From IMG/VR virus record IMGVR_UViG_3300013137_000135, positions 1 to 20,396 of that record: 20,396 bases of DNA; one strand, written 5' to 3'. Source of the stretch: a virus. Position 1 is the stretch's first letter, and each line of letters starts with the position of its first letter. Position numbers and translations under genes: made by a program. The notes under the pieces were generated by a model. That model saw nothing but the letters and a program-made list of their open reading frames with translations, was not told the DNA's origin and did not search any database. This document shows positions 6,838 to 20,019 of this stretch, in pieces.

Positions 6838-7103
6838 AGGAGAAGGGACCGTGTCCCGAGGCCTACTTCTGGAGCGAGGTCTGCGAGGCCTTCCACTGCA
6901 CACCGTTGGAGGCCTACCGGCAGCCGTGGCCGTTTCTGCTGGACATCCTCGAGGCACGGTCCTTCGCACGGGTCTACGAGGCCGAGGACGAGGCGAGCCG
7001 CACGGAGGGCGCCAAGCACCCACATGGTCCGATGGCCGACTTCATTCTGCAGTTCGCGAAAGAGGATTACGAGAGGTTGAAGGAGAGTCGCGCACGTGAA
7101 TGA
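6807..7103 (+). CDS. Tail assembly chaperone, frameshift extension (lambda gpT analogue)
   Basis: In the -1 frame relative to the short form, an open stretch of 98 codons runs to TGA 7101-7103 and overlaps the tape measure start by eight bases. It reads RRLRELYDYLEEKGPCPEAY, then FWSEVCEAFHCTPLEAYRQP and a helical charged end. There is no ATG or GTG in this frame between 6807 and 6905. The first usable start is TTG 6906, which would discard the well-formed segment before it. A fusion made by slipping near 6804-6808 would be about 232 residues. In lambda and many siphophages such a minor fusion product loads onto the tape measure protein. The assignment follows from frame arrangement and context. 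Confidence 0.7.
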   Translation, partial: RRLRELYDYLEEKGPCPEAYFWSEVCEAFHCTPLEAYRQPWPFLLDILEARSFARVYEAEDEASRTEGAKHPHGPMADFILQFAKEDYERLKESRARE

Positions 7104-9759
7104 GCAGATGCTCCGATTCGTGATCTCGGCCCGCGACGATGCGTCGAAGGTGCTGAAGGGATTCCGCGGCGAGCTGGACAGGGCAGGCGCTGACGCGGAA
7201 AAGGCAGCCGACCGCGGGCACCGGGCATGGTCCAAGTTCGGCGGCATCATGAAGTCGGGACTGCTGGCCGGCGCCGTCGCCGGGGTCGCCGCCCTGACTG
7301 CTGTCGTCCACACGGGCATCGGGGAAACGCTCGACGCCTCAGCTGGACACGCGCAGCTGGTGGCAGGCATCAAGTCCACCGGCAGCGCGGCTGGGGTCAC
7401 AGCCAAGCACATCGAGGACCTGGCGGGCACGATCCAGGGCTACTCAGGGCAGACTGACGACAGCATCGTGGCGACGGGCAAGCTCCTGCTCACCTTCACG
7501 AACATCAAGAACAGTGGCCCCAACAAGATCTTCGATGAGGCCACGATCGCCGCCGCAGACATGGCCGCGAAGATGGGCGGGGAAGCCTCAGCATCCGCCA
7601 TCCGGCTTGGCAAGGCGCTCAATGACCCGGTGAAGGGCATCACTGCACTCCAGCGTGTCGGCGTCTCCTTCACCGAGGGACAGAAGAAGCAGATCGCGGC
7701 CATGGTCGAATCCGGTGACGTGGCCGGTGCGCAGAAGATGATCCTCGCTGAGCTCAATAGGGAGTTCGGCGGTGCGGCCAAGGCGGCAGGGGAGTCGCTG
7801 CCGGGCCAGCTTGCCAAGGGCAAGCGCGCTTTCGAGGACATGTCGCAGTCTGTCGTGACGGCCTTCGTGCCGGTCGTGGTGCCGGCGATAGAGGCGGCGG
7901 CGGCTGCGTTGCAGAGAGCAGCCCCGCACATTGAGGCCTTCGCGCAGGGCCTGGCGAAGTCAGCACAGAACGGCGCGTTGGGGGCGATCTTCAGCGCCAT
8001 CGGCACCGCTATCGGATTCGTCGCCCGCAACATCGAGTACGTCGTGCCCATTCTCGCCGGCCTGATCGCCGGTATGGTGGCCTTTCAGATATCGAACGCC
8101 ATCACGGCCGTCACGGCATGGTCTGCAGCGTCCGGAGTCAGTGCCTTGGGCGCGGCCGTCGCCTTCGCCACCGCCCCGCTCACGCTCATCGTCGTTGGCA
8201 TCGCCGCCTTCGTCGCCGGGCTGGTGCTCCTCTACCAGAAGAACGAGACCTTCCGCGAGCTGGTCAATACGGTCTGGTCGTTCGTCAAAGAGAAGGTCGG
8301 CGAGGTGGTCGGCTGGGTGGTCGAGAAGCTGAAGGAGTTCGGCGCCTGGCTCAAGGACGTCTGGGAGCGCAACGAGAAGCTGCGCGACAAGGTGGCGTCT
8401 GCGTGGTCGGCCGTCTGGGAGGCCGTCAAGAAGGCGGCGACCTGGGCGATCGGAAAGCTCAAGGATTTCGGCGGCTGGCTCAAGGACGTCTGGACCCGCA
8501 GCGAGAAGCTGCGCGACATCGTGGGCAAGGCCTTCGGCCTCGTCTACAGCGGCATCAAGCTCAATATCGGGCTCACCGTCACGGTCATCAAGACCATCAT
8601 CGAGGTCTTCAGGAAGACATGGGAAGCAGGCGGCAAGGTCAAAGACAAGCTCGTCGATGCCTTCCAGTCCCTGCACTCGCGGGCCAAGGACATCTGGGGC
8701 AAGATCGGCGACGTGGTCGGCGCGGCGAAGGACCGTATCGTCGATCTCGTCAACAACATCATCAGCGCCATCAACTGGGTCATCCAGAAGGTGCCGGGCG
8801 TCAGCGAGAAGCAGGGCGTCCTGCCGACCTTCCGCACCTCGGCGAACAGCAAGGCCTCCAACGGCGGCACCGGCGGCCCGGCTCCCAGCCGCAGCAGTGT
8901 CGCAAGCTCCCTCATCCCGTCTGACGGCGGCCTCGGCCTCATGGACAACGGCGGCACCGGCGTGCCCGGCCAGGGCGGCATGGGCGGTGGCTCAGGAGCC
9001 AGCATCGGCGGTATCGTCGACTGGGCCAAAGAGATGATGGGCAAGCTGCGTATTCCGTGGCCGCAGAAGTTCGGCGGACTCTTCGGCGGAGCCTCCGGTC
9101 TGATTCTCGAGATGGCCAAGGACGCCGCTCTGGCGCTCATCCGCAAGTACGGCGGCGGCCCCGGCCGCGCAGCCGTCGAGTGGGCCAAGACGCAGATCGG
9201 CAAGCCGTACCTGTGGGGCGCGACCGGCCCCGACGCCTACGACTGCTCCGGCCTCATCTACCGCGCCTACGCGACCGTCGGGCACCCGTTCCCGACGCGC
9301 GCCAACTGGTGGAACTACGGCCGCCTCGTGAGCGGCAGCCAGGTTCGCCCTGGCGACGTCGGATTCTTCGCCCCTCACAACAGTCAGGGAGTCAAGTACG
9401 GACACGTCAAGATGTACGCAGGCGGTGGCCAGGCCATCGAGTCCGCCTCCGGCGGCGTCCACATGAGCCCGTGGGGCGGTGCGTCGGAGATCCGCACGTA
9501 CCTCGCCAAGGGCGGCATCGTCTCCGGCCCCAAGAGCGGCTTTCCGGTCATGATGCACGGCGCCGAGGCAGTCACCGTGACGCCGCTCGACAAGGCCGCG
9601 CCCAGCGTCTACGAGGACAACAGCCGGCTCACTATCAACCTGCCGCCGAGTCTCACCCCGTCTCAGGCGAAGGCCATCGCCTCGCGCGAGATCGCGGCGT
9701 GGGAAGCACGCAGGAAGTCCGCCGCGAGGGCTGCCGGGTTCGGCAGCGTGAGGGGGTAG
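7096..9759 (+). CDS. Tape measure protein with NlpC/P60 peptidase domain
   Basis: This 887-residue protein sets tail length and probably helps open the cell wall. It starts with GTG overlapping the chaperone end; AAGGAGAG lies upstream. Residues 1-300 are helical, with a hydrophobic stretch at about 56-71. A long hydrophobic region spans about 316-380. A helical block repeated at 43-residue spacing (about 410-490, containing W-L-K-D-V-W-x-R and EKLRD) follows, then a Gly-rich linker (about 590-640). An NlpC/P60 domain lies at about 690-800: DCSGL gives Cys717, and GHVKMYAGGG gives His770. The third position of the triad appears to be Glu782 rather than His. The end carries the common tape-measure motif K-G-G-I-V...H-G-A-E-A-V. 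The peptidase would cut peptidoglycan stem peptides during entry. Confidence 0.85.
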   Translation: MNEQMLRFVISARDDASKVLKGFRGELDRAGADAEKAADRGHRAWSKFGGIMKSGLLAGAVAGVAALTAVVHTGIGETLDASAGHAQLVAGIKSTGSAAGVTAKHIEDLAGTIQGYSGQTDDSIVATGKLLLTFTNIKNSGPNKIFDEATIAAADMAAKMGGEASASAIRLGKALNDPVKGITALQRVGVSFTEGQKKQIAAMVESGDVAGAQKMILAELNREFGGAAKAAGESLPGQLAKGKRAFEDMSQSVVTAFVPVVVPAIEAAAAALQRAAPHIEAFAQGLAKSAQNGALGAIFSAIGTAIGFVARNIEYVVPILAGLIAGMVAFQISNAITAVTAWSAASGVSALGAAVAFATAPLTLIVVGIAAFVAGLVLLYQKNETFRELVNTVWSFVKEKVGEVVGWVVEKLKEFGAWLKDVWERNEKLRDKVASAWSAVWEAVKKAATWAIGKLKDFGGWLKDVWTRSEKLRDIVGKAFGLVYSGIKLNIGLTVTVIKTIIEVFRKTWEAGGKVKDKLVDAFQSLHSRAKDIWGKIGDVVGAAKDRIVDLVNNIISAINWVIQKVPGVSEKQGVLPTFRTSANSKASNGGTGGPAPSRSSVASSLIPSDGGLGLMDNGGTGVPGQGGMGGGSGASIGGIVDWAKEMMGKLRIPWPQKFGGLFGGASGLILEMAKDAALALIRKYGGGPGRAAVEWAKTQIGKPYLWGATGPDAYDCSGLIYRAYATVGHPFPTRANWWNYGRLVSGSQVRPGDVGFFAPHNSQGVKYGHVKMYAGGGQAIESASGGVHMSPWGGASEIRTYLAKGGIVSGPKSGFPVMMHGAEAVTVTPLDKAAPSVYEDNSRLTINLPPSLTPSQAKAIASREIAAWEARRKSAARAAGFGSVRG

Positions 9760-17305: not shown

Positions 17306-17358
17306 GAGGCGGCCGGTCTGTGGAGTTCGTCCGCTCCCCTGGCCGGCCGCCTCTTTCT
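17306..17358 (+). terminator. Rho-independent terminator of the structural operon
   Basis: GAGGCGGCCGG (17306-17316) pairs perfectly with CCGGCCGCCTC (17343-17353). The stem has 11 bp and a 26-base loop, and TTTCT follows it. It lies 75 bases after the fibre stop, in the space between the rightward structural genes and the leftward regulator operon. Confidence 0.75.
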
Positions 17359-17475: not shown

Positions 17476-17551
17476 AGCCACCCCACGGACGCAGCGGCGG
17501 CCTCTTCTGGCCTGACCTCCTCCAAGAGGCCGTCGCGCTCCGTGGGGGGCT
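17476..17551. ncRNA. Long 28-bp bulged hairpin, candidate structured RNA
   Basis: Positions 17476-17506 pair with 17551-17524 in 28 base pairs (one is G-T) with a 17-base loop. Three single unpaired bases (A17480, C17490, A17493) all lie on the 5' arm. No T-tract follows on either strand, so a standard terminator is unlikely, although it sits between convergent operons. No believable gene is seen in the whole 17231-17590 stretch. A structured non-coding RNA, a non-canonical bidirectional terminator or a DNA protein-binding palindrome are the options. Pairing was traced base by base; no folding energy was computed. Confidence 0.5.
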
Positions 17552-17590: not shown

Positions 17591-18037
17591 TCAGATTTCC
17601 TCTTCCTCGTCGGTGCCCATGCCAGCATCCACGCGCTCCGCGTAGGCGCGGCCTGTGCTCTCGGTGTAGAGCTGCTGCCAGAGCATGCTGCGGATGATCT
17701 CGGCACGGCTTGCGAGATTGCGTGCGGCGAGCTCGTCGATCCGGTCAATGAGCTCTTGCGGCATCCGCACGCTGACGTGCGGCCCTATCTCGGGGCGTCC
17801 CGGGCCGGACTTGGAGGCGCGCCACGACTTGCCGGACTTGGTACGCTCGATCCTTCCCTCGCGCTCCAGCTGGTCGATGACGACGGAGGCAATCACGTTC
17901 GAGCCGGTGATCCTCGCGACCGTGTCCTTGAGGACGTCGCAAGCAATCAGCCCTCGACCGGTGACGAGGTTGATGACGCTGCGGTGAAACTCGCGGGCGT
18001 TGTCGCCGACGGTCCTGTCTGTCGTCTGCTGGCTCAT
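17591..18037 (-). CDS. Winged-helix / ribbon-helix-helix DNA-binding regulator
   Basis: The 148-residue product is read leftward, with ACAGGAGCCCACC before its ATG. Residues about 33-76 look like a winged helix: IACDVLKDTVARITGSNVIA, then VIDQLEREGRIERTKSGKSW with the wing. Residues 87-123 form a CopG/MetJ-type ribbon-helix-helix: beta strand HVSVRMP, helix QELIDRIDELAARN, then ASRAEIIRSMLWQQL. The C-terminus is acidic (DEEEEI). A protein combining both DNA-binding folds is probably a transcription regulator. It is the second gene of a leftward operon whose promoter region carries tandem 11-bp repeats, so autoregulation and control of the divergent operon are likely inferences. A plasmid-type partition regulator is the alternative. 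Confidence 0.7.
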   Translation of the reverse strand: MSQQTTDRTVGDNAREFHRSVINLVTGRGLIACDVLKDTVARITGSNVIASVVIDQLEREGRIERTKSGKSWRASKSGPGRPEIGPHVSVRMPQELIDRIDELAARNLASRAEIIRSMLWQQLYTESTGRAYAERVDAGMGTDEEEEI

Positions 18038-18061: not shown

Positions 18062-18367
18062 CTAGAGGCTGGCGATCTCGGTGAGAGCGGCGCGGGCGGT
18101 CTCGCGGTCGGCCTCATCGGCTTTGCAGCTGATCGGGCGGTTGTCGGCGGCCCGGTAGGTGATGCTCTTCATGGCGTCAGCGGCGAATCCGGCGTCGGTG
18201 TGGTCGATGGCGCCGAGGATGCTGTCGACGATTGCGAGGCGAGCCTTGATGGGGGCATTGATCTCGCGTGCGGCGCTGCGACTGCCGGCGGCTGCTATGT
18301 TCTCCCTGAGAGAGGACTCAAGGGCCTCAACCTCTGCCTGGTACCTGGTGACTGTCTGCTGGTTCAT
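18062..18367 (-). CDS. Hypothetical small protein, first gene of regulator operon
   Basis: This 101-residue protein is read leftward from an ATG with an AGGAGGGG ribosome-binding site, starting about 27 bases after the predicted transcription start. It is mostly helical (YQAEVEALESSLRENIAAAG, INAPIKARLAIVDSILGAI) with a short middle segment DAMKSITYRAADNRPISCKA. No DNA-binding motif or known family is recognised. It lies 24 bases before the regulator gene and shares its Q-Q-T-rich start. An antirepressor or a partner of the regulator is possible but unproven. Confidence 0.65.
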   Translation of the reverse strand: MNQQTVTRYQAEVEALESSLRENIAAAGSRSAAREINAPIKARLAIVDSILGAIDHTDAGFAADAMKSITYRAADNRPISCKADEADRETARAALTEIASL

Positions 18368-18400
18368 GATCCCCTCCTGCTCCGTTCACCTGACTACCTA

Positions 18401-18429
18401 AGTATAGACGATGCCGCTTATCGTGTCAA
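18401..18429 (-). promoter_or_regulatory. Strong sigma-70-type promoter of the leftward regulator operon
   Basis: On the minus strand TTGACA (18429-18424) and TATACT (18406-18401) are separated by exactly 17 bases. The -35 box is perfect and the -10 box has one mismatch. The start would be near 18394, leaving a leader of about 27 bases with AGGAGG before ATG 18367. The inverted repeat ACGAT/ATCGT (18408-18412/18420-18424) lies between the two boxes and could be an operator. Confidence 0.8.
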
Positions 18430-18440
18430 CATAAACGGTG

Positions 18441-18462
18441 GCGATAATGTTGCGATAATGTT
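18441..18462 (+). repeat. Tandem 11-bp repeat, candidate operator in divergent region
   Basis: GCGATAATGTT occurs twice in a row (18441-18451 and 18452-18462) with no mismatch. The core CGATAA appears a third time, inverted, as TTATCG (18418-18423), in the spacer of the leftward promoter. Each repeat contains GATAAT, so they may also serve as -10 boxes for the rightward gene. Ribbon-helix-helix regulators typically bind short tandem sites about one helical turn apart, and such a regulator is encoded next door. AAGGAG (18463-18468) follows directly. Confidence 0.65.
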
Positions 18463-18474
18463 AAGGAGTGCCGC

Positions 18475-19191
18475 ATGAGCTATCTCAGAGTCCTCCGCCG
18501 CATGGCCGAGCTGGCGCTGCTGGCGATCCTCGTGGTCGTGGTCATCCTCGCCTTCGCCGGCCGTGCCGACACCTACCCACAGGCGAACGACACGCAGTAC
18601 AAGAAGTGGGCGCTCGGTTGGCACAAGCAGGCCGTCCGCGAACGCAAGGCCCTCGTCCGTCACACCGACGCGCTCGGCCTCAAGCGCCCGCGCAAGGTGC
18701 CCACGATCGCCGAGTGGACCGTCTACATCTGCGAGACGGACAAGCCGAATCTCCGCGTGGACTTCACCGCCGAGGGCATGGACCTCGCCACGGCCGAATC
18801 CCGCTGCGACACCGTGACCGCGATCATGAGCTGGCGCCACTACGGCGCCGACTCCAAGCGCGTGGCCAAGGCGTTCCGGGCGCGGACGGCGAAGCTCCAC
18901 CATCGCATCACGCATCCCGGCGGGTCATCGAACGGTGTGCGCTGGAAGCCGCTGGCCCGTTATGTCGGCTGGCCTGAGTATGCGCTGCCGAGGCTCTCCC
19001 AGATCATCATGCGGGAGTCGTCAGGGCGGCCACAGGCCTACAACGGCATGATCGGCTGCTCGGGCTTGCTCCAGATATGGCCTGGTCATGTGTCGGCCGC
19101 CAATCGGTCACGGCTCTTCGACCCTGAGTACAACCTGCGCGTCGGGCTGAGACTGTGGCGGCAGCAGGGGTGGCAGCCTTGGACGCTGTAG
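18475..19191 (+). CDS. Membrane-anchored lysozyme/SLT-like transglycosylase
   Basis: This 238-residue protein starts at ATG after AAGGAG. An N-terminal hydrophobic segment (about 11-28, AELALLAILVVVVILAFA) is a signal anchor or signal-arrest-release type sequence. Residues about 35-155 are basic and of unknown fold. Residues about 160-238 form a small lysozyme-like domain: ALPRLSQIIMRESSGRPQAY places the catalytic Glu at residue 181, then CSGLLQIWPGH, and a final EYNLRVGLRLWRQQGWQPW helix. This is the core of SLT-type enzymes that cut glycan strands. It lies apart from the main lysis cassette, under the divergent regulatory region. It could serve in a second lysis step, wall remodelling or superinfection exclusion. 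The catalytic fold is recognised by motif, the role is inferred. Confidence 0.75.
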   Translation: MSYLRVLRRMAELALLAILVVVVILAFAGRADTYPQANDTQYKKWALGWHKQAVRERKALVRHTDALGLKRPRKVPTIAEWTVYICETDKPNLRVDFTAEGMDLATAESRCDTVTAIMSWRHYGADSKRVAKAFRARTAKLHHRITHPGGSSNGVRWKPLARYVGWPEYALPRLSQIIMRESSGRPQAYNGMIGCSGLLQIWPGHVSAANRSRLFDPEYNLRVGLRLWRQQGWQPWTL

Positions 19192-19664: not shown

Positions 19665-19701
19665 CCACCGTCATATTGGATTGCTAAGGAGGGGGGTCTT
19701 T

Positions 19702-20019
19702 GTGAGTTATGACATCTCAACCCAAATGGGTGGAACCGTGGAGCTAGAGTCAGAGAAGCAGTACGCGGAGGTACGGCAGACCATCGCATCTCAGTTCATG
19801 GACGAACTGGAGGCCGTGCGCCTATTCGCGGCCAAGGTCTGCGAAGAAGCATCGGAGCGGCTCGCAAGCGTGATGATGGAGCCGTCCAATAGCGGGCCGG
19901 TTGCGGAGAAAATCTCCGAGCGGTGGCCGCCATTGTTCAACGAGGGGCGCAGCAAGGTGGACGACATCGATGCTAGCCTGCGCAGCATTGCGGCATTCCT
20001 GCGAGCCACAGAACTATGA
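19702..20019 (+). CDS. Helical hypothetical protein
   Basis: The start is GTG 19702, preceded by AAGGAGGGGGG with about seven bases of spacing; a longer in-frame start at 19519 would lie inside the previous gene. The 105-residue product is helical (EKQYAEVRQTIASQFMDELE, EKISERWPPLF, DDIDASLRSIAAFLRATEL) with no membrane segment or Cys motif. No family is recognised. Its stop overlaps the next start (ATGA). Confidence 0.6.
   Translation: MSYDISTQMGGTVELESEKQYAEVRQTIASQFMDELEAVRLFAAKVCEEASERLASVMMEPSNSGPVAEKISERWPPLFNEGRSKVDDIDASLRSIAAFLRATEL

Follow-up and report, generated by a model that had tools for sequence, protein, structure and literature searches.

Arc and Mnt of phage P22 are small ribbon-helix-helix (RHH; CopG/Arc/MetJ family) repressors encoded beside their own operator, a layout that the locus described here resembles. 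In Escherichia coli, the RHH protein RelB represses its own promoter, its dimers occupying adjacent half-sites on one side of the helix (PMC2812701). The omega protein (ParB) of pSM19035 recognises 7-bp repeats, direct or inverted, that overlap promoters (PMC9499535). MobC of plasmid RA3 is the autorepressor of a two-gene operon and has its operator at the promoter (PMC4175270).

A candidate locus of this kind lies in the window, the whole 20,396-base virus record (IMG/VR) under analysis, which is an uncultivated phage fragment with 66% GC. Its right end had no DNA matches among 50,697 phage records. The window carries a capsid gene, a tail tape-measure gene and an amidase gene, then two leftward genes and then rightward genes, the first coding for an SLT-type transglycosylase; a lytic-enzyme gene had been expected on this side. 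Close to the C-terminus, the 887-residue tape-measure protein (7096-9759, + strand) contains an NlpC/P60 peptidase domain. Past the final tail-side gene lies a strong hairpin rich in GC, with TTTCT behind it (17306-17353, + strand), which is a likely terminator of the late operon. The gap of 107 bases between the leftward gene pair and the oppositely directed transglycosylase gene (18368-18474) overlaps the GC minimum of the contig, 44.9% at 18385-18491 in 107-bp windows. It is best read as the autoregulated promoter of a small phage RHH repressor operon, because the leftward operon encodes an RHH protein together with a 101-residue protein. The probability that this reading is correct, with the regulator binding at this site, is about one half.

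Table 1. Features within and near the 107-base gap.
Feature	Position	Strand	Remarks
Strong hairpin past the regulator gene	17481-17547	-	Possible terminator of the leftward operon, without T run
Gene of the 148-residue regulator	17591-18037	-	RHH domain spans residues 88-122; winged-helix-like prediction for the N-terminal part, at low confidence
Gene of the 101-residue protein	18062-18367	-	First in the leftward operon; no significant family match
Shine-Dalgarno GGAGGGG of the 101-residue gene	18371-18377	-	From sequence
-10 hexamer TATACT of PL	18401-18406	-	17-bp spacer
-35 hexamer TTGACA of PL	18424-18429	-	
Operator-like unit A, CGTTTATGTTG	18427-18437	-	Inverted, 9/11; overlaps the -35 box
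Operator-like unit B, CGATAATGTTG	18442-18452	+	Contains GATAAT, a possible rightward -10
Operator-like unit C, CGATAATGTTA	18453-18463	+	Head to tail with B; touches the Shine-Dalgarno
Shine-Dalgarno AAGGAG of the transglycosylase gene	18463-18468	+	From sequence
Gene of the 238-residue transglycosylase	18475-19191	+	N-terminal hydrophobic segment; SLT-type domain at residues 174-227

The leftward promoter PL, TTGACA-N17-TATACT (18429-18401), is the top sigma-70-type promoter-like site of the whole window with a score of 11/12. A score of 11 was reached in none of 1000 shuffles of the region, in agreement with the near-perfect promoter noticed by the sequence-only reading. The ATG of the 101-residue gene follows 33 bases after PL, a good Shine-Dalgarno lies in between, and transcripts from PL probably start near 18394. 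In the rightward direction, the best promoter candidate of the region scored 8/12.

The 11-bp sequence GCGATAATGTT occurs twice, exactly and head to tail (18441-18451 and 18452-18462). This pair is the only perfect tandem duplication of at least 10 bp in the 20.4 kb. Comparable perfect tandems appeared neither in 20 simulated windows nor in 2000 simulated regions. The sequence-only reading had noted the pair and proposed a search for further copies; the remainder of the 20.4-kb window contained no other exact copy, and the exact tandem was absent across all IMG/VR. The promoter with its repeats is real and beyond chance. A third, inverted copy, unit A, had been overlooked. It shares three bases with the -35 hexamer of PL (simulated p = 0.011, before allowing for other comparisons), and just two 9/11 matches to the 11-bp unit lie elsewhere in the window. 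Unit A is a better copy than the inverted CGATAA core that had been proposed within the PL spacer. This core is present (18423-18418), but it is a plain 6-mer and matches at 6-7 of 11 positions when extended to the full unit. An ACGAT/ATCGT inverted repeat is present as well, but a similar one was found in 44% of shuffled regions. It was dropped as evidence, being at chance level.

Units B and C are 11 bp apart, hence on the same face of the helix, and lie directly upstream of PL. They adjoin the Shine-Dalgarno of the transglycosylase gene and overlap the only GATAAT -10-like elements that point rightward. Counted from the probable PL start, the coordinates place A at about -33 to -43, B at -48 to -58 and C at -59 to -69. 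Repeated units overlapping the operon's own promoter, as in autoregulated RHH operons, are thus present with A on the -35 and B and C directly upstream. The neighbouring same-face sites and the putative repression of the own promoter by RHH dimers recall RelB at relO (PMC2812701). In relO, however, 12-bp half-sites consist of 6-bp repeats and a toxin acts as co-repressor, whereas here the units have 11 bp, a toxin was not found and the RHH domain is C-terminal. The omega system also combines an RHH protein with direct and inverted unit repeats over promoters, but with 7-bp units in arrays of 7-10 and a ParA partner (PMC9499535); here, there are three 11-bp units, one pair of them exactly adjacent, and no ParA was seen. 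MobC shares the putative autorepression of a two-gene operon, but it serves plasmid transfer and has one palindromic operator (PMC4175270), unlike the repeated units of this locus.

A DNA-binding regulator had been assumed in the leftward operon. The 148-residue protein has a significant RHH domain in its C-terminal half (Pfam RHH_1, E 1.7e-8, above cut-off), and its operon starts at the near-consensus promoter whose -35 the repeat units overlap. The protein also matches phrog_4738 'transcriptional repressor' (E 2e-10); its Pfam Arc match was below cut-off. The RHH part is 33% identical over 65 residues to gp27 of Propionibacterium phage B22 (phrog_4738), whose gene is likewise near lysis genes. 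In contrast to the window regulator, gp27 has 64 residues and no N-terminal domain, and the stretch upstream of its gene lacks a PL-like promoter. A model of the regulator, built with few relatives, reached a mean pLDDT of 60, with about 75-86 in the strand-helix-helix (RHH) region. The N-terminal part was modelled as helix-strand-helix-helix-strand-strand, which is the winged-helix order, followed by the RHH helices. Foldseek retrieved mostly winged-helix chains, the best no better than E 0.09, and the Pfam MarR family gave E 0.06. A fusion of winged helix and RHH is plausible at this low model confidence and may be the sole mildly unusual part of the locus. A literature search for winged-helix plus RHH proteins returned no paper that combined all the terms, and a sequence search of solved structures gave just weak matches to the RHH part of NikR. 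Among the relatives found, different N-terminal parts precede the RHH part, or it makes up almost the entire protein. Searches of family, toxin, defence and partition libraries with the 101-residue protein gave no significant match.

Single-sequence searches of viral contigs with the regulator, the 101-residue protein and the SLT protein retrieved no relatives. A full-length regulator orthologue was found neither in viral contigs, by sequence and by profile, nor in genome contigs. The profile search yielded ten RHH loci. Apart from that on contig G001, readable N-terminal parts belonged to another family (GWFD-type) or were missing, and the tested loci had no strong promoter. Relatives of the amidase provided no additional neighbourhoods with the regulator. 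Two contigs, G001 and G002, have a related capsid gene (64-70% identity). Both also carry a tyrosine integrase gene, so the phages of this group are probably temperate. G002 had no RHH match.

G001 is the sole relative with the same neighbourhood: genes for an unknown 105-residue protein, a 112-residue RHH regulator and an SLT protein follow each other on one strand. Translated from an inner ATG, this SLT protein (locus L005, 1834-2300) begins lipoprotein-like (VCLVGC), and the ORF list probably places its start too far upstream. The G001 operon has an 11/12 promoter, and terminator-like sites lie both upstream of it and between its regulator gene and the SLT gene. Since it runs in the same direction as the SLT gene, with a terminator in between, divergent control is not a conserved feature. 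An inverted repeat, GTTTACAGTGCCC / GGGCACGGTAAAG, spans the promoter's -35 and -10 with 11 of 13 bases alike by eye. The best repeat of an unbiased 11-base scan was equalled by 10% of shuffles, and the repeats around the G001 promoter are only suggestive. The 11-bp unit and its GCGATAATG core are absent from the G001 RHH operon. Loss of the repeats in relatives that keep the regulator had been named as a refutation; the absence of GCGATAATG is only a weak form of it, because the two regulators align just over the RHH part, with 36-45% identity. An RHH operon with a strong promoter and an SLT neighbour recurs in G001, with a different orientation and operator sequence.

With promoter, repeats, their geometry and the RHH domain as observed, the autoregulated promoter may work as follows. 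The strong host-type PL would transcribe the leftward 101-residue gene and the regulator gene. RHH dimers of the regulator would bind the 11-bp units, cooperatively in the case of B and C, which face the same side of the helix at a distance of one turn. Once occupied, B and C would cover the leader of the transglycosylase gene, the border of its Shine-Dalgarno and any start in the rightward direction. Unit A, inverted and weaker, reaches into the -35, and its occupation would switch PL off. The neighbouring lytic-type gene would thereby be held low and the repressor would limit its own level, with repression perhaps acting both ways. The most economical reading assigns the strong sites to the SLT gene and the weaker one to self-limitation. 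The similar bicistronic operon beside the SLT gene of G001, again behind an 11/12 promoter, speaks for it, as do the mode of action of known RHH repressors and the probably temperate lifestyle of these phages. The position of B and C, about 48-69 bp upstream of the probable PL start, speaks against it: so far upstream, the two best copies would not directly block PL, and they could even help it. The poor rightward promoter, the lack of the exact tandem elsewhere in IMG/VR, the missing core in G001, the modest p value of unit A by itself and the failure to find a full-length regulator orthologue also count against it. A more elaborate version, in which a two-domain repressor of winged helix and RHH restrains the transglycosylase from the strong tandem sites, caps its own synthesis at the weak inverted site and obtains graded control from three 11-bp units, is quite improbable.

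The compact two-way switch of the sequence-only reading was not borne out. The two good opposing promoters of a CI/Cro-like arrangement were not found, given the rightward score, and the divergent layout is not kept in G001. No opposing regulator was detected among the scanned rightward genes, which encode the SLT enzyme and proteins of 169 and 99 residues without significant family match; this arm, which also has an ORF at 19700-20019, runs 1.9 kb to the contig end.

The regulator operon may instead be a self-contained inserted (moron-like) unit, expressed in the prophage from its own host-type promoter, with purely autoregulatory repeats and the transglycosylase gene not a target. The GC valley and the strong host-type promoter are consistent with an insertion. 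The same applies to G002, without RHH match, and to G001, where the operon has another orientation to the SLT gene, a promoter of its own and flanking terminator-like sites. This explanation is possible but unlikely: B and C, the perfect repeats, sit right next to the SLT gene start, a place for controlling this gene and not PL. It is improbable that the tandem repeat belongs to a rightward promoter, with the GATAAT of each unit as -10, and is a product of replication slippage that plays no part in repressor binding. GATAAT agrees with TATAAT at 5/6 positions, and in unit C it is preceded by TGC, as in extended -10 promoters. However, the matching -35 is missing (3/6), a start from unit C would land within the Shine-Dalgarno, and the inverted third copy is left unexplained.

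It is very unlikely that the operon is a toxin-antitoxin pair or partition module whose operator or centromere is formed by the repeats. Antitoxins and RHH ParB proteins typically combine an RHH domain with repeat operators (PMC2812701, PMC9499535), and the operon is small with two genes. Yet the 101-residue protein matched no toxin, ParA or defence family, and a partner toxin was not found; the antitoxin matches of the regulator were far below cut-off. Omega partition sites need at least four contiguous repeats (PMC9499535), compared to just three units here.

The locus is a well-known sort of control region and ordinary in kind. If the reading as an autoregulated repressor promoter is true, it would add one more RHH-type phage repressor with its operator, and a link to a cell-wall enzyme that can be tested. 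Both regulator and operator are short and well defined, so they would be easy to test, but the underlying principle has long been established.
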